Assembly: GCA_945905295.1 (NCBI GenBank)
Contig: CAMDPX010000059.1
Coordinates: forward strand, 1-33,550
Origin: Planctomyces sp. SH-PL62
GTDB taxonomy: Bacteria; Planctomycetota; Planctomycetia; Planctomycetales; Planctomycetaceae
Reading direction: 5' to 3'
DNA length: 33,550 bases
The position numbers and the translations under genes are program-made. Below are positions 1,497-10,671 of the stretch, piece by piece; within the stretch, counting starts at the first letter, position 1; each line of letters starts with the position of its first letter. Under the pieces are notes generated by a model. It was not told the origin of the DNA. It ran no database searches and was given only the letters and a program-made list of their open reading frames with translations.

Positions 1497-2183
1497 TTAC
1501 GCCACGCGGCTGCGGTGGAACTTTTCCAACTCGCGGTTCGCATGGACCATCGTGACAAGTTTATGGACAACCGCCTCAAGCTGCGCGCCGGCGATCGCGA
1601 AGTACAGTTCGTCGTCCGGCAACTCGGTGTAAACGCGGTTGCCGATACAACCCAGGTTGGTGGCGGTACGCCCGGATTGCATCACCGCCGGGATCGCCGC
1701 GCAGGTGGGGCGGCCGACCATCGACGAGTCGCTGGCGAGACCCGCCGCCTGCGCCGCTTCGGCCAGCAACATCATCTGTCTCGCGTTGCCAGACACCAGG
1801 ACGACATCAGGAGCGAACGCCGCGTCCGTCAACGGAGCATAAATGGCGACACCAAACGATTCCCCGCGCCGAGGGATTCCGGGGACTTCCGCCATGTCGA
1901 TGTATTCGAGTTGGACCATCGTTCCGACCAAGCCCTCCAGTTCCTTCGCCGTGGCTTCCGGCAAGTCGATGCCGTGTGTGTACGAGCCGATCGGACAGCC
2001 GTAATGGTCGGACGCGGTGGTCTAAAAGGTGCGTCCGTCGGCGGCCAATTTCCAATAGGTGCAACCCGATAGCGCGACCGCTTCGATTCGCGGCACGCCC
2101 TCCGGAGCCGCGCTCTGAAACTTGATCGCCACCGGTTGCGACCGCAATGTCAGTAATTCAATCAACTGTGCTGCTGGGGGCAT
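1497..2183 (-). pseudogene. DUF169 family protein with in-frame TAG
   Basis: Starts at ATG 2183 (GGAG 9 nt upstream). The first 53 codons read MPPAAQLIELLTLRSQPVAI and go on to LSGCTYWKLAADGRTF. TAG at 2022-2024 follows. The same frame then continues, without any other stop, through TTASDHYGCPIGSYTHGIDL to GRPTCAAIPAVMQSG, LGCIGNRVYTELPDDELYFA and a stop at 1497. Full length would be 228 residues. The conserved cysteines and the P-(V/I)-A-(I/V)-K-F opening fit the DUF169 family, whose biochemical role is not established. The TAG falls where a tyrosine (TAT or TAC) would suit the motif, so a single substitution explains it. If it is not a sequence error, this is a nonsense-mutated gene. A restart downstream would lose the N-terminal third. 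Confidence 0.65.
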
Positions 2184-2264: not shown

Positions 2265-3713
2265 TTAAAACATATTCGTCGTGCTGTTGCTGAGAGGGTC
2301 CAACTGACCCTCGGTGGGCTCCGCTCAGCAGAACCACGACTCTGTCAGTCTGGGAGCCTTCCGCCGATCCAGCGGCAGTGACCGAACGATGACCGGAGGT
2401 TGTCGCTCGTGAGCCAAATCCAAAACGCGGTAAAACGTTGTCGCAGTGTCCTCGCCTGCCTGAGTCGCTTGCTCCACCAGTCGAGCGACTTCCTTTTGCA
2501 ACAAGTCCATGCGCGGATCGGGATGCGTCCAGCGGTAGCTGAAGGCGGCCTCGTCCAGCGGCCCACGATGTGGCAGAGTCTCCGGATGTTCGGCCAGCCA
2601 GGAGCCGGGCGGGATCAGCAGCCGGATTGCATACTGCACTGGATCAACGTGATCGATCAATCCATTGGCTTCGATGAAATCCAGCACTTCGCAGTAATCT
2701 TCCCGCGTCGTCCAGGGCGTGAACACGACCCATGTCGGTTGCAGTGCGATGCCCGCGTCGCGCACGATCGTCAGCGCGGCGGTCACGTCGTCCCGCGTAT
2801 GTTGCTTGTCGAAAATCCGCAGCACTTTTTCGCTGAGCGATTCCACGGCCGAGATGATGAACAAGCAGCCGGCCGCGGCAAATTCCGGTAAGTCCTCGCC
2901 TCGATTCAAGAGGTGTTCGACCTTGGCCGTGAAGTCGAACGTGAGCATCGGAAACTCTGCGTGCATCGCGCGGACCACACGCAGCGAATGCTTAGGTCCG
3001 TTCAAAAAGTCCGGATCGCCGAACGTGATGTGAGTGGCTCCTGCACGCACTTGGCGGCGGATGTCCTCCAGCACGACGTCGGGTGGCACGGTAAAGAACC
3101 GGCCTTCGTACACCGGCGGGATTGGGCAGTGCGTACACAAATGCAAGCAACCGCGACTGGCTTCGACGTAACCCGCCGTGCGACGCTGGCCGTTGTGTTC
3201 CAACTGGGCGTACTTATCCAGAGTCGGCAGCGCATCTCGTTCGGGAATCGCAAACGACAACCGCACGAGATTCGGACCCGCCGGTTGCTGACGCCGAATC
3301 ACGCCCGCGACTTGAGCACCGGTCTCTGATTCCATTGACTCGACCAGCGCAACCAGCGGCCCTTCGTATTCCCCGCCGATGCACGAGTCCGCGCCGTGGG
3401 TCAGCAGGTACTCGGAGTTCAACGCGGCATAGAGCCCGTAGCAACAGATGTGGCAGTGCGGATTGATTTCTCGCAGCCGTTCGATGACCCGCACGCCCAA
3501 CCGCATCGCCGTGTGCATGGGGACAGAGATCCCGACAAACCGCGCCCGCGATGCAATTTCCGCGTCAAACTTCTCGACCGCGATGTCGATCGCCACCGGC
3601 AAGTAACCCGCGCGACGCAAGAATCCCACCGGCATAGCAACACCGAGCGGTTGGTGCCCCAACTCGTAACACGAGACTAACAGAATGGAACCTTCGCCGC
3701 GCAAGTCCACCAT
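2265..3713 (-). CDS. CUAEP-tail B12-binding/radical SAM selenoprotein (TGA at 2325-2327 read as Sec)
   Basis: I place the start at ATG 3713 (GGAGG 5 nt upstream) rather than GTG 3773. Residues about 10-130 form a cobalamin-binding-type Rossmann region (FVGISVPMHTAMRLG, GADSCIGGEYEGPL). The radical SAM cluster motif CxxxCxxC is C189-C193-C196 in SRGCLHLCTHCPIPP, followed by an SPASM-free core (ITFGDPDFLNGP, AVESLSEKVLRIFDK). The frame reaches ESWFC then TGA, but continues A-E-P-T-E-G-Q-L-D-P-L to TAA 2265-2267, giving 482 residues with selenocysteine at 463. W-F-C-U-A-E-P is exactly the tail that names the known CUAEP/CCAEP-tail radical SAM (seleno)protein family, so I read the TGA as Sec and not a stop. 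A hairpin fitting a bacterial SECIS follows it. The substrate is unknown. If the genome lacks selenocysteine machinery, the product would end at C462. Confidence 0.88.
2289..2329 (-). promoter_or_regulatory. Candidate bacterial SECIS element
   Basis: On the minus strand, 12 nt after the TGA, GAGGGTC (2312-2306) and GACCCTC (2300-2294) form a perfect 7-bp stem closing the loop AGTTG. The loop starts 19 nt after the TGA and has a G in its second position, both as expected for bacterial SECIS elements. A second stem pairs GCTGA (2329-2325, including the TGA itself) with TCAGC (2293-2289). It would recruit SelB at the Sec codon. Confidence 0.7.
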
Positions 3714-5695: not shown

Positions 5696-8122
5696 ATGTT
5701 CCGAAGAATTCTGGTATCACTCCTGATCGTGGTTTGTGCGACGTCCGCGTTTGCCGCGTCACCACGGCTGAGCATCATCAATCCGCGAGGCGTGCAGCGC
5801 GGCACCGAAGCGGTGCTGACTTTCAGCGGCTCACAGCTTGGCGATGGGGAGCAGATCCTCTTCTACTCGCCCGGAATTGAAGTCGTGAAGGTCGAAACCG
5901 TCGACGTCAACAACTGCAAGGCGACGGTCAAGATCGCACCCGACTGCCGACTCGGCGAGCACGTTGCTCAGGTGCGGACGAAAACCGGCATCTCCGACTA
6001 TCGGACGTTCTACATCGGAGCGTTGCCGCAAGTGGATGAGAAAGAGCCGAACAACTTCTTCGACCAACCGCAGCCAATCACGCTGAATCAAACGGTCGTC
6101 GGCACGATCGGCGGTGAAGACGTTGATTACTACATCGTCGAAGCCAAAAAAGGACAACGCATCTGCGCTGAGGTCGAGGCTCTGCGTCTTGGTTCGGCGT
6201 TTTTCGATCCGTATGTGGCAATCCTCGACATGAAGCGATTTGAGCTTTCGGCCGCAGACGACACGCCGCTGGTTGGTCAGGACGCAGTCGCGTCGATCGT
6301 CGCCCCGGAGGACGGCAAGTACGTCATTCAAATCCGTGAGACCGCCTATGGCGGAGGCAGTAATTATCGGCTTCACATCGGCACGTTTCCGCGTCCGCTC
6401 GCCGTTTATCCAGCGGGTGGAAAACTCGGTGACGAAGTCGAGCCTAAATTCCTTGGCGATCCAGCCGGTGAGTTCGTGCAGAAATTCAAGCTGCCGACGG
6501 CAGACTCGAAAGAGTTCACGGGCTTGTTCGCGACCGTCGGCACCGAGACCGCTCCATCGCCGAATCCGTTTCGCTTGTTCGAGCACGGCAACTCGCTGGA
6601 AGTCGAACCGAACAATACGGTCGCTCTGGCGACGCCCGCGACGCTGCCGAACGCCTTCAACGGGATCTTGCAAGAGCCGGGTGATATCGACTTCTTCAAG
6701 TTCACCGCGACCAAAGGACAAGTCTATGAAGTCGAGTGCTACGGCCGCCGCATCCGCTCGGCGATCGACCCCGTGATGACGTTGTACAACGCCCAAGGTG
6801 GCGGCATCGTCGGCAATGATGACTCGCGCGGACCGGACAGCTACTTTCGAGTGACGATCCCTGCCGACGGCGAATACCTGCTAAGCGTGACCGATCACCT
6901 CCAGCGCGGTGGACCGGGCTTCGTGTATCGCGTCGAATTCACGGGCGTCGTGCCGTCACTGCAGTTGAGCATTCCGCAAGTCGAGCGATACGGCCAGTAC
7001 CGTCGCCAAGTTTACATCGCGAAGGGCAATCGCTTCGGCACGATCATCAACGCCAGCCGAGCCAACTTCGGCGGTAAACTGCTGCTCGAACCACAAGGCA
7101 TGCCCGCAGGAATCACGATCGTCGCCGAGCCGATGGCTGAGAACCTTGCCTCAATGCCAGTCGTCTTCGAGGCCGCAGCCGACGCACCAGTCAACGGCGC
7201 GCTGGTCGATTTCATCGGACGCCATGCCGACAACCCAGCCATTCGCGGCGGCTTCTTCAATCGCGCCGAGTTCATCATCGGTGCCCCCGGACAGTCGATG
7301 TACTCGTGGCGTGACGTCGATCGCCTGGCGGTGGCGGTCGTTGACGAACTGCCGTTCAAGATCGACCTCGTCGAACCGAAAGTCCCGCTGGCGCAAAACG
7401 GCTCGATGCAATTGAAGGTCGTAGTGACTCGCAAAGAAGGCTTCAAAGCCCCGATCAATTTGATCTTCCCATTTGCTCCGCCGGGCGTCGGTGCCGCGCC
7501 GAACGTGACGATCCCCGAAGGTCAGAACGAAGCGCTGTACCCGATCAATGCTGCCGCCAACGCTCAGATTGGCAAGTGGCGGGTCTTCGTGCTCGGTTCT
7601 GCCGAAATCGGCGGAGCCGCGTTTTCGTCAACACAACTCGGCAACCTGGAGATCTCGGCTCCGTGGGTCACCTTCGCAATGCAACGCGCGGCGGTCGATC
7701 AAGGCCTGCCGACGGAAGTCGTCTGCAAAGTCGATGTGACGACGCCGTTCGAGGGGAACGCCAATGTCCAACTCCTCGCGTTGCCCAACAAAGTTCTTTC
7801 TCAGCCGTTGCAATTCACGAAGGACACGAAAGAACTGGTCTTCAAGGTCACCACCGAGAAGGACAGTCCCGCCGGCAAGCACGGCATCTTCGGCGTCGTG
7901 ACGATCACGGCCAACGGCGAACCAGTGACGCATAACGTAGGCGGAGCCGAACTCCGCATCGACGTACCGTTGCCGCCCAAGCCCAACACCCCGGCCCCGA
8001 TGCCAGCGCCGGCCGTCGCCGCTGCGGCTCCTGCGCCAATGCCGGTTGCCGCCGCGCCCCCGAAGCGACTCAGCCGTCTGGAACAACTTCGCGAAGACGC
8101 CAAAGCCAAAGTCGGGAAGTAG
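5696..8122 (+). CDS. Exported PPC-domain (pre-peptidase C-terminal) protein
   Basis: I choose ATG 5696 (GGAG 8 nt upstream; followed by MFRRILVSLLIVVCATSAFA, a Sec signal peptide), giving 808 residues. After an IPT/TIG-like N-terminal domain (INPRGVQRGTEAVLTFSGSQ) come two PPC-type beta-sandwich domains. The first begins near residue 117 (EPNN, then DVDYYIVEAKKGQ). The second begins near residue 304 (EPNN, then DIDFFKFTATKGQ and DGEYLLSVTD). Later regions look like further beta-rich domains. The C-terminus is a Pro/Ala-rich linker ending in a short charged helix (LEQLREDAKAKVGK). PPC domains are generally non-catalytic binding or stabilising modules; no protease domain is visible. The position between DUF1501 and DUF1549/DUF1553 genes, same strand, suggests one periplasmic or surface assembly. 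Confidence 0.88.
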   Translation: MFRRILVSLLIVVCATSAFAASPRLSIINPRGVQRGTEAVLTFSGSQLGDGEQILFYSPGIEVVKVETVDVNNCKATVKIAPDCRLGEHVAQVRTKTGISDYRTFYIGALPQVDEKEPNNFFDQPQPITLNQTVVGTIGGEDVDYYIVEAKKGQRICAEVEALRLGSAFFDPYVAILDMKRFELSAADDTPLVGQDAVASIVAPEDGKYVIQIRETAYGGGSNYRLHIGTFPRPLAVYPAGGKLGDEVEPKFLGDPAGEFVQKFKLPTADSKEFTGLFATVGTETAPSPNPFRLFEHGNSLEVEPNNTVALATPATLPNAFNGILQEPGDIDFFKFTATKGQVYEVECYGRRIRSAIDPVMTLYNAQGGGIVGNDDSRGPDSYFRVTIPADGEYLLSVTDHLQRGGPGFVYRVEFTGVVPSLQLSIPQVERYGQYRRQVYIAKGNRFGTIINASRANFGGKLLLEPQGMPAGITIVAEPMAENLASMPVVFEAAADAPVNGALVDFIGRHADNPAIRGGFFNRAEFIIGAPGQSMYSWRDVDRLAVAVVDELPFKIDLVEPKVPLAQNGSMQLKVVVTRKEGFKAPINLIFPFAPPGVGAAPNVTIPEGQNEALYPINAAANAQIGKWRVFVLGSAEIGGAAFSSTQLGNLEISAPWVTFAMQRAAVDQGLPTEVVCKVDVTTPFEGNANVQLLALPNKVLSQPLQFTKDTKELVFKVTTEKDSPAGKHGIFGVVTITANGEPVTHNVGGAELRIDVPLPPKPNTPAPMPAPAVAAAAPAPMPVAAAPPKRLSRLEQLREDAKAKVGK

Positions 8123-8141
8123 AGAACTTGAATCACCGCTG

Positions 8142-8179
8142 ATCCTCGCTCATTGGGATTACGGCTAATCAGTGAGGAT
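8142..8179. repeat. Imperfect intergenic hairpin
   Basis: ATCCTCGCTCATT (8142-8154) pairs with AATCAGTGAGGAT (8167-8179) at 11 of 13 positions around a 12-nt loop. It lies between the PPC-domain and DUF1549/1553 genes. There is no T-run, so it may be a small dispersed palindrome more than a terminator. Confidence 0.45.
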
Positions 8180-8229
8180 GAGCGTTCCCAACAGATTTCA
8201 AAACAACCTCTCAATCGAGGAGTGAACTA

Positions 8230-10671
8230 ATGCGATTTCCCAAGACCTTGCCAGGGTTGGCGACGCTTCTTTTGGCCGGAGGTTTGGCAGCGTCCAGTGC
8301 CGTCGCTCAAGAGCCGGTGCCGGTTTCCATCGCCGTTTATCCGCCGAACGCGCAGATCAACACGATTCGGGATCGGCAGTCGATCGTCGTGCAAGCAACC
8401 TACGCGGATGGGATCACTCGCGACGTTACCAAAGCGGCGACATTCGCGTTTGCCAATCCGGCGTTCGTGAAGTTCGAGAATCACACGATGTTCCCAGTCG
8501 CCGATGGGAAGACCGAGCTGAAAGTAGACTTCGGCGGGAAGTCGGTGGTCGTGCCGGTCGAGGTGGCTCAGGCAACGGCGGATCGGCCGATCTCGTTCAA
8601 ACTCGACGTCATGCCAGTCTTCATGAAGGCCGGCTGTAACACAGGGTCGTGTCACGGAGCAGCTCGCGGGAAAGACGGCTTTCGTCTCTCGCTGTTCGGC
8701 TTCGATCCGGACGGAGACCACTATCGCCTGACGCGCGAAATGAGCGGCCGCCGCATCAATCTGGCATTGCCTGCGGAAAGTTTGCTGGTGGAGAAGAACA
8801 CCGGCGTCGTCCCCCACACCGGCGGCAAGCGGTATGAGCCAAACAGCGAACTGAATCAAACCACGATCCGCTGGCTGGAAGCGGGTGCGCCCAACGATGT
8901 GGGCGAAGTGCCGAAGGTGCTGGCGGTTGAAATTTATCCGCCCAGCGCGGTGCTCGATGGCGAAGGCTCAACGCAGCAGATCACTGTCCGAGCGAAGTAT
9001 TCGGACGGCACCGATCGCGACGTCACCTCGCTGGCGTTCTTCATGACCAACAACGACACCTCGGCGGGTGTCTCGCAGCAAGGACTCGTCACGGCCGGCA
9101 AACGCGGCGAGGCGTTCCTGATGGCTCGCTTCGAGACGCACACCGTCGGTTCGCACTTCATCACGCTGCCGAAAGGCTTCCAATACAACGCTCCGCAATT
9201 GCCGGAGAACAACTATGTCGATCACCTCGTCAACGAGAAGCTCAAGCGACTGCGGATCAACCCCAGCGAACTTTGCACCGACGAGGAGTTCGTCCGCCGA
9301 GCGTACCTCGACATTGTCGGAGTGCTGCCGGCCGTCGAGGAGTACACCAAGTTCATGACGAACGCCGACCCGAAGAAGCGGGACGCGCTCGTGGATGAAC
9401 TGCTTGGTCGCAAAGAGTTCGTTGAGATGTGGGTGATGAAGTGGGCCGAGTTGCTACAGATCCGCACGAACCAGCAGATCACGACGAAACCGATGCTCCG
9501 CTACTATGAATGGCTGCAAGAACGAGTCGCCAAAAATATGCCGATGGACCAGATGGTTCGCGAACTGCTCTCGGCCAAGGGAGGCACGTTCGCGAACGCC
9601 GCGACCAACTACTACCAGATCGAACGGGACACACTGAAGACGTCTGAGAATGTCGCCCAGGTCTTCATGGGGATGCGGACTCAATGTGCTCAGTGCCACA
9701 ACCACCCATTCGACCGCTGGACGATGGACGATTACTACAGCTTCGCCGCGTTCTTCGCGCAGATCGGCCGCAAGCAGGGCGAAGACCCGCGCGAGATCAT
9801 CATCTTTAATGCCGGCGGCGGCGAAGTGGCTCATCCAATCGGCGGCCGGCCAATGAAACCCAAATTCCTCGGTGGCGCTGTGCCCGATGTCGCCGGCAAG
9901 GATCGACGCGAAGTCATGGCCAATTGGCTGGCCTCGAAAGAGAACCCGTACTTCGCCAAGAATCTGGCGAACATTGTCTGGTCGCACTTCTTCGGCCAAG
10001 GCATCATCGATCAAGTCGACGACGTGCGCGTCAGCAACCCGCCGTCGAATGCCGAACTGATCGACGAACTCGGCAAGAAATTCACCGAGTACAACTACGA
10101 CTTCAAAAAACTGGTCCGCGACATTTGCACCAGCCGCATCTATCAACTCTCGACCAAGACCAACGAGACGAACGCGCTCGACGATCGAAACTTTTCTCAC
10201 GCAACGCTGCGGCGCATCCGCTCGGAAGTGCTGCTGGACTGCATCACGCTGGCGACGCAAACCAAAGACAAGTTCGGCGGCCTGCCGCTCGGCTCACGCG
10301 CCGTTCAAATCGCCGACGGCAACACTTCGACGTACTTCCTGACGACCTTCGGTCGAGCGACTCGCGACAGCGTTTGCTCGTGCGAAGTGAAAATGGAACC
10401 GAACCTGTCGCAAGCTCTGCACCTGCTCAACGGCGACACGATCAACAGCAAGCTCCAACAAGGAGGACTGATCGATCTCCGCTTGAAAGAAGGCAAAACT
10501 CCGCCGCAGATCATCGAGGAAATGTACCTCCGCACGTTGACCCGTAAGCCGACGGAAAAGGAACTGGCCGCGCTCAACGGCGTCCTCGTCAACGAGAAGG
10601 ATCCCAAGCCGGTCCTCGAAGACGTGTTCTGGTCGCTGCTGAACTCGCGAGAGTTCGTGTTCAATCATTAG
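8230..10671 (+). CDS. BIG2 - DUF1549 - DUF1553 exported haem-motif protein
   Basis: 813 residues, start supported by GAGGAG 8 nt upstream. A Sec signal peptide (LPGLATLLLAGGLAASSAVA) is followed by a BIG2-like domain (about 31-113), a cysteine motif C136-NTGS-C141-H142, a second BIG2-like domain (about 228-310; YPPSAVLDGEGSTQQITVRA), then DUF1549 (VDHLVNEKLKRLRINPSEL, VRRAYLDIVGVLPAVEEY) and DUF1553 (NPYFAKNLANIVWSHFFGQG, LRRIRSEVLLDCI). A canonical CxxCH haem-binding motif sits in QCAQCHNHPFDRW (C486, C489, H490). The first motif is CX4CH, which is not the standard haem spacing. Members are widespread in planctomycetes and predicted to be periplasmic; their function is unknown. Context is the DUF1501/PPC cluster. 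Confidence 0.92.
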   Translation: MRFPKTLPGLATLLLAGGLAASSAVAQEPVPVSIAVYPPNAQINTIRDRQSIVVQATYADGITRDVTKAATFAFANPAFVKFENHTMFPVADGKTELKVDFGGKSVVVPVEVAQATADRPISFKLDVMPVFMKAGCNTGSCHGAARGKDGFRLSLFGFDPDGDHYRLTREMSGRRINLALPAESLLVEKNTGVVPHTGGKRYEPNSELNQTTIRWLEAGAPNDVGEVPKVLAVEIYPPSAVLDGEGSTQQITVRAKYSDGTDRDVTSLAFFMTNNDTSAGVSQQGLVTAGKRGEAFLMARFETHTVGSHFITLPKGFQYNAPQLPENNYVDHLVNEKLKRLRINPSELCTDEEFVRRAYLDIVGVLPAVEEYTKFMTNADPKKRDALVDELLGRKEFVEMWVMKWAELLQIRTNQQITTKPMLRYYEWLQERVAKNMPMDQMVRELLSAKGGTFANAATNYYQIERDTLKTSENVAQVFMGMRTQCAQCHNHPFDRWTMDDYYSFAAFFAQIGRKQGEDPREIIIFNAGGGEVAHPIGGRPMKPKFLGGAVPDVAGKDRREVMANWLASKENPYFAKNLANIVWSHFFGQGIIDQVDDVRVSNPPSNAELIDELGKKFTEYNYDFKKLVRDICTSRIYQLSTKTNETNALDDRNFSHATLRRIRSEVLLDCITLATQTKDKFGGLPLGSRAVQIADGNTSTYFLTTFGRATRDSVCSCEVKMEPNLSQALHLLNGDTINSKLQQGGLIDLRLKEGKTPPQIIEEMYLRTLTRKPTEKELAALNGVLVNEKDPKPVLEDVFWSLLNSREFVFNH

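Follow-up and report, generated by a model that had tools for sequence, protein, structure and literature searches.

Gene and domain organisation

The window (the whole stretch of 33,550 nucleotides that was analysed) carries on its minus strand a gene for a radical SAM protein with a TGA codon in frame close to its end. The features at this locus are as follows.

1497..2183, minus strand: DUF169 (COG2043) gene directly downstream; Pfam PF02596 on 1497-1964, frame read from 2183, in-frame TAG at 2024-2022
2265..3713, minus strand: predicted CUAEP-tail radical SAM selenoprotein gene, from translation with TGA as selenocysteine and the NF040546 score; ATG at 3713, TAA at 2267-2265, 482 aa, selenocysteine at 463
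2288..2330, minus strand: SECIS-like hairpin; upper stem 2312-2306 with 2300-2294, loop 2305-2301 (AGUUG), lower stem 2330-2325 with 2293-2288
2325..2327, minus strand: in-frame TGA, predicted selenocysteine 463, from translation and from the alternation of TGA, TGC and TGT in the best 80 of 509 relatives
2733..3164, minus strand: Radical_SAM domain, residues 184-327 (Pfam PF04055, 52.9 bits)
3126..3149, minus strand: radical SAM motif C189xxxC193xxC196, from translation; all three cysteines invariant in 43 aligned rows
3345..3680, minus strand: B12-binding-type domain, residues 12-123 (Pfam PF02310, 35.8 bits, cut-off 32.1)

Translated from the minus strand with TGA as selenocysteine (Sec), the gene reads ATG...WFC-U-AEPTEGQLDPLSNSTTNMF-TAA, where U463 is followed by 19 residues before the TAA. 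The full-length product has WFCUAEP as residues 460-466, continues with TEGQLDP and closes with LSNSTTNMF. The sequence-only reading of this DNA had described WFC-TGA followed by AEPTEGQLDP and a TAA, and the minus-strand translation confirms it; no strand was stated there, and the plus-strand frame across 2265-3713 contains five stops. Under translation table 11 the protein stops at C462. Automatic annotation had been expected to truncate the protein in this way, and an example is visible in plasmid NC_011961 of Thermomicrobium roseum DSM 5159 (L166:6956-8392), where the CDS that bears the name CUAEP/CCAEP-tail radical SAM protein stops at WFC-TGA and the same frame continues with AEPLEDP.

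The family assignment made from the sequence is borne out by model NF040546, 'CUAEP/CCAEP-tail radical SAM (seleno)protein', which gives 700.4 bits with the tail and 679.7 bits without the residues behind the TGA, against a cut-off of 500. The protein aligns to model positions 1-467 of 468, and has in common with the family the radical SAM motif, the CUAEP tail and the UGA inside that tail; no feature was found that distinguishes the gene from other Sec-form members. It is a further member of a family already named in NCBIfam, and adds a well documented Sec form to this family, of which at least one public record is truncated. Its nearest rows in a tree are Planctomyces and Kuenenia records, both from Planctomycetota.

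Cobalamin binding by the protein is predicted from the B12-binding fold; the corresponding Pfam match is absent in the Thermomicrobium roseum member. AlphaFold2, run with 43 rows, generated a confident model overall (mean pLDDT 91.8, pTM 0.91). The average pLDDT of residues 461-470 is 65, and residues 476-482 fall under 50, so that the position of the arm carrying the Cys-Sec pair is not confident. Foldseek placed AprD4 best, followed by OxsB, MgmA and TsrM. These solved structures, compared without tails, have the overall fold in common with the model (TM-score 0.55-0.66 on the query) at 13-18% identity. AprD4 is not known to use cobalamin.

The codon at position 463 in relatives

Relatives were taken from a scan of named genomes, of which the best 80 of 509 were analysed; one of the two patterns used, WFCCAEP, matches Cys codons only. 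The codon equivalent to 463 is TGA in 49 of these best 80, TGC in 21 and TGT in 10, and the resulting 49:31 ratio of Sec to Cys is, on account of this selection and the Cys-only pattern, not a population frequency. Close kin are still present among the 80 rows. An alignment of homologues had been suggested as a check, with C or U followed by AEP expected at 463 and homologues ending at C462 without a conserved AEP as the contrary outcome. WFC[U/C]AEP was found in every one of the 80 best-scoring relatives of the 509, none ending at C462 without AEP, and the C[U/C]AEP tail is invariant in the 43 aligned rows.

A copy scoring over the NF040546 cut-off was found in eight of 40 genomes, the genome of the window included: seven in the genus (again counting its own) and one in the family. 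Each of the eight copies has exactly one in-frame TGA. That the read-through is not a chance continuation of the frame follows from this single TGA, from the rise in NF040546 score given by the residues behind it, and from the tail motif present throughout the best 80 of 509 relatives.

On a tree for which the tail was left out, a minimum of four changes between Sec and Cys is needed, of which the well-supported branches force only one. Nitrospirota account for 26 of the 31 Cys rows among the best 80 of 509. Five further relatives were obtained through the model for ArsL (discussed below). Two of them, L161 and L163, come from the same phylum and read WFC-stop-AEP in frame; a simple pattern search did not find this arrangement in the other three, of which L165 ends WYC before its stop. 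Members of TIGR04167, another family with known selenoproteins, were found in 0/12 genomes of the genus and in 4/21 overall, none with an internal stop. Two genomes have partial copies lying within contigs, covering model positions 1-122 (L033, in G001) and 1-315 (L032, in G017), which are perhaps decayed.

A SECIS-like hairpin behind the UGA

The RNA of the window behind the UGA is predicted to fold at -31.5 kcal/mol (z -3.2), with 1/200 shuffles as good. In this minimum-energy fold the UGA lies inside the lower stem, there is a small side hairpin, and the upper stem forms 6 of its 7 possible pairs. A bacterial SECIS model, as quoted in PMC13188914, has a loop of 3-9 nt with G as its first or second base and a stem of 4-16 bp, and lies 16-37 nt from the UGA with an energy of at most -7.5. 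The upper stem falls within these limits: its loop is 5 nt with G second, it has 7 possible pairs, it lies 19 nt from the UGA, and the energy is -20.3 for 51 nt.

The weight of the evidence for the hairpin rests on the comparison across rows. Pairing holds in 88.4% of the upper-stem cells across the 47 distinct Sec rows, and covariation reaches 0.397 compared with 0.233 after shuffling, a value that 0/500 shuffles attain; when the partner strand is slid by 1-3 columns, covariation in the Sec rows is at most 0.203. The 31 Cys rows are 40.1% paired, and no measure rises above shuffles. Shuffling of synonymous codons gives a similar picture. The Sec rows have 6.19 of the 7 pairs against 4.53 in the shuffles (0/2000 reach the observed value), and the Cys rows 2.81 against 2.61 (278/2000). 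A stem that arises merely as a by-product of the protein sequence was rejected on the basis of these shuffles, with the Cys rows as control. The upper stem covaries in the Sec rows and not in the Cys rows, a contrast that may be new.

Individual sequences carry less of this signal. For the window alone, 131/5000 synonymous shuffles also yield 7 pairs, and when each sequence is folded singly to minimum energy, only 24/51 Sec rows form four or more of the seven upper-stem pairs. The lower stem is well kept only in near relatives, with a mean of 3.7 of 6 pairs in Sec rows and 2.4 in Cys rows.

Selenocysteine machinery

The same genome had been proposed as the place to look for selA, selB, selC (tRNA-Sec) and selD. 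Three of the four are there: in this draft (97.2% complete, 476 contigs), selA (518 bits), selB (342) and selD (291) each score over cut-off without an internal stop. The fourth, tRNA-Sec, was not found in the draft with the Rfam model, with BLAST using the gene of a sister genome, or with an anticodon-arm motif allowing 3 mismatches, and is present in sister genomes. All 13 Rfam tRNA-Sec matches in the genome are under cut-off, and the eight inspected by ARAGORN are other tRNAs. Searches of the window, and of the surroundings of selA, selB and selD, for tRNA and Rfam matches gave nothing useful.

Within the genus, tRNA-Sec scores above 65 bits in 8/12 genomes (the draft being counted among the 12), and ARAGORN reads tRNA-SeC(tca) at five loci, four from the genus and a fifth from another genus. 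In the seven genomes of the genus that have the enzyme, tRNA-Sec is whole in three (G004, G006 and G009), split in one and partial in one; it was not found in the draft or, over cut-off, in G002. The split case, G010, carries the gene in two pieces that overlap, each at the end of a different contig, and the partial case, G005, has bases 1-46 only (L065, around 1501-1546). These two cases indicate that the locus may assemble badly. The G005 remnant lies near small genes that resemble, by eye, toxin-antitoxin pairs, and tRNA-Sec may be an integration site in the genus. Four other genomes of the genus (G003, G007, G008 and G011) have tRNA-Sec and no CUAEP gene over cut-off, which suggests that Sec is used elsewhere in the genus too.

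The test for SelB covered 50 genomes out of the 80, chosen as 25 with the Sec form and 25 with the Cys form. It was found in 22/25 Sec genomes and in 3/25 Cys genomes (Fisher 8.5e-8, with phylogeny ignored). The exceptions are L097, L109 and L143, which have Sec without SelB, and L107, L123 and L139, which have Cys with SelB.

Decoding of the UGA

Taken together, codon alternation, the upper stem in the Sec rows, the distribution of SelB and the presence of selA, selB and selD support the insertion of selenocysteine that the sequence-only reading had inferred. On this evidence from sequence comparison, the gene almost certainly encodes a selenoprotein, with the UGA read as Sec. SelB and Sec-tRNA would read the codon owing to the RNA hairpin directly behind it.

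The simplest alternative is that the UGA is a true stop, the protein ending at C462 and the AEP behind it being a relic or chance. Table 11 would end the protein there, as does the annotation of Thermomicrobium roseum in its public record. However, AEP lies behind the position in every one of the best 80 of 509 relatives, on which ground a true stop is rejected; a Cys codon replaces UGA in 31 of them, the upper stem is conserved in the Sec rows only, and the Sec form is coupled to SelB. A true stop is therefore hardly credible. It might also be argued that the gene is Sec-coded by descent, and that the species, having since lost its tRNA-Sec, has ceased to make the full-length product. The failure to find tRNA-Sec in a draft as complete as this one, or over cut-off in its sister G002, would fit such a loss, as would the adjoining DUF169 frame, which is interrupted in the window and uninterrupted in stretches from 11 relatives. 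Against it stand selA, selB and selD, over cut-off and without internal stops in the same draft, the intact hairpin of the window, and the cut and partial genes of G010 and G005, which point to a locus that may be poorly assembled. We regard loss as very unlikely. Overall, a selenoprotein of the CUAEP/CCAEP-tail radical SAM family is, with high probability, the best explanation of the gene.

The comparison amounts to a natural series of Sec/Cys swaps; the presence of the RNA stem tracks that of the UGA and, for the most part, that of SelB.

Neighbouring genes

Codon 54 of the DUF169 frame downstream of the gene is TAG; in nine relatives it encodes Tyr or Phe (TAC, TAT, TTT or TTC), and in the more distant L031 it is GCC. 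The TAG may reflect faulty assembly, a polymorphism or a nonsense mutation of recent date. Neither Nfu nor ATP-grasp was found in the 4.4 kb piece of the window designated L026, nor was an ATP-grasp gene found in the window as a whole.

Three families recur beside the enzyme. Counted with one tblastn query per family, in the best 80 of 509 loci, DUF169 is found in 32, ATP-grasp in 32 and an Nfu/NifU-type protein in 26. Of the 90 matches, 89 lie on the strand of the enzyme, and many of them begin 1.4-2.6 kb behind its start (DUF169 26, ATP-grasp 27, Nfu 20). None of the three was found in 21/80 loci, of which three have less than 1.5 kb of downstream sequence; ten of the 80 loci are as short as this, and a simple ORF caller missed the core frame in eight. 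Pfam bore out the assignment for two DUF169 proteins, two ATP-grasp proteins and one Nfu protein, and identified an L-amino-acid ligase C-terminal domain in both of the ATP-grasp proteins checked.

In L147, from Nitrospirota, a single open frame of 761 aa (7947-10232) encodes both a CCAEP radical SAM protein and DUF169. In L128, from Ignavibacteriales, SUFBD-core, class-V aminotransferase and Fe-S_biosyn genes lie ahead of the enzyme gene, and Nfu, a dehydrogenase and ATP-grasp come after it. The gene sizes in L146 and L151 are nearly those of L128. The literature naming DUF169, as far as it was covered and in the parts of the sources available, consists of a table entry and a passing mention, and offers no lead.

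A wider tally was made of 123 proteins, drawn from 165 same-strand neighbours outside DUF169, ATP-grasp and Nfu. It excludes ten loci, frames of more than 900 aa and nine further apparent near-duplicates. No arsenic family is among the 25 commonest families of the 123 proteins, a tally in which rare arsenic genes could be missed.

Relationship to ArsL

The second-best model for the protein is ArsL (NF040542, rSAM_RCCLKC), an enzyme in the biosynthesis of the arsenic antibiotic arsinothricin, with the same CxxxCxxC spacing. It matches residues 30-431 at 333 bits, under its cut-off of 450, and the third model reaches 50 bits. For ArsL, transfer of the 3-amino-3-carboxypropyl group from SAM to arsenite has been proposed (PMC8552651).

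A plasmid search returned 17 records, one of the CUAEP/CCAEP kind and 16 of the RCCLKC/ArsL kind, and three were examined. The two ArsL-type proteins, from Priestia and Alicyclobacillus plasmids, have vicinal cysteines and end RCCLKC, whereas the tail in the window is CUAEP; the Alicyclobacillus protein has a B12-binding match slightly under the Pfam cut-off. Both ArsL clusters have an ATP-grasp gene alongside their arsenic genes, and ATP-grasp also lies near CUAEP genes. The ArsL-cluster ATP-grasp, in which the ligase C-terminal domain is slightly under cut-off, is a distant homologue of the one beside a CUAEP gene (23% identity, E 3e-26; 22%, E 5e-15).

Arsenic and arsinothricin gene queries were taken from the two RCCLKC clusters, comprising ArsM, ArsN1, ArsR, ArsI, an aquaporin, a phosphate transporter, a GTP-binding protein and others. 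They found nothing adjacent to the gene in the 80 loci, which are the best-scoring of 509 and span about 1.05 Mb, in one more plasmid locus or in the window. Besides ATP-grasp, their sole matches in the 80 loci were a weak MFS match 1.6 kb away (L111) and a weak ArsM match 7 kb away (L114). Membership of ArsL itself was rejected, the protein being below the cut-off, with another tail and no arsenic genes found. The kind of enzyme and the ligase are thus common to both systems, and the arsenic context, in the loci searched, is not.

Possible function

On the basis of these observations we tentatively propose a scheme which seems to us possible, if on balance improbable as a whole, consisting of ArsL-like chemistry with a Cys-Sec arm, ATP-grasp ligation, and DUF169 or Nfu as partners. 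A [4Fe-4S] cluster on C189, C193 and C196 would cleave SAM beside the B12-type domain, as in ArsL. The poorly placed C-terminal arm would carry the Cys-Sec pair, which would bind a thiophilic co-substrate, either a thiol or a soft element, or pass it on, in the way that the RCCLKC cysteines at the end of ArsL might. Where the ATP-grasp ligase adjoins, the product would be coupled to an amino acid, and DUF169 or Nfu would be cluster- or thiol-handling partners. The sequence-only reading had suggested a C-U redox pair at the tail, which is plausible; binding of a thiophilic co-substrate is just as likely. If the tail does hold a co-substrate, selenocysteine would be used here for something beyond ordinary redox catalysis.

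Two other functions deserve consideration. The protein could be a methylase that depends on cobalamin, or some other enzyme working through a 5'-deoxyadenosyl radical, with a metabolite or an Fe-S protein as its substrate and the Cys-Sec tail as a redox or cluster-handling device. The B12-type domain that scores over cut-off and the structural neighbours OxsB, TsrM, MgmA and AprD4 argue for such a role, as does Nfu, near the gene in 26 of the 80 loci and among SUF genes in the Ignavibacteriales locus. By sequence, however, ArsL is far closer, at 333 bits compared with at most 50 for any methylase model, and we consider this function a serious possibility that falls somewhat short of probable. 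Alternatively, the substrate could be arsenite, as proposed for ArsL, the gene then belonging to a second organoarsenical pathway. This would account for ArsL being the nearest family, for the vicinal thiol/selenol tail, and for the ATP-grasp gene near both. However, the ArsM, ArsN1, ArsR, ArsI and phosphate transporter queries and the tally of the commonest neighbours, described above, both failed to place arsenic genes beside the enzyme, and arsenite is an unlikely substrate.

The ArsL-like scheme can be extended to a more specific and rather doubtful suggestion, that the CUAEP/CCAEP enzyme heads a small-molecule pathway found across several phyla (Planctomycetota, Nitrospirota, Rokuibacteriota, Poribacteria, Acidobacteriota, Gemmatimonadota and others). 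It would make a SAM-derived amino acid with a soft element or thiol by ArsL-like chemistry, the Cys-Sec pair holding the element and ATP-grasp making a dipeptide. DUF169, encoded in a single frame with the enzyme in one Nitrospirota genome, would be a dedicated partner. No such pathway was met in the literature searched. The question of the substrate is in any case made testable, in that the nearest relative of ArsL has a Cys-Sec tail and frequently has an amino-acid ligase and DUF169 close by, with no arsenic genes found beside it.

No paper on the CUAEP/CCAEP family was found in the literature searched, the coverage of which is incomplete, so that the neighbours have possibly been described already. 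The contrast in hairpin and SelB between the Sec and Cys forms, and the recurrence of DUF169, Nfu and ATP-grasp as neighbours, may be new.
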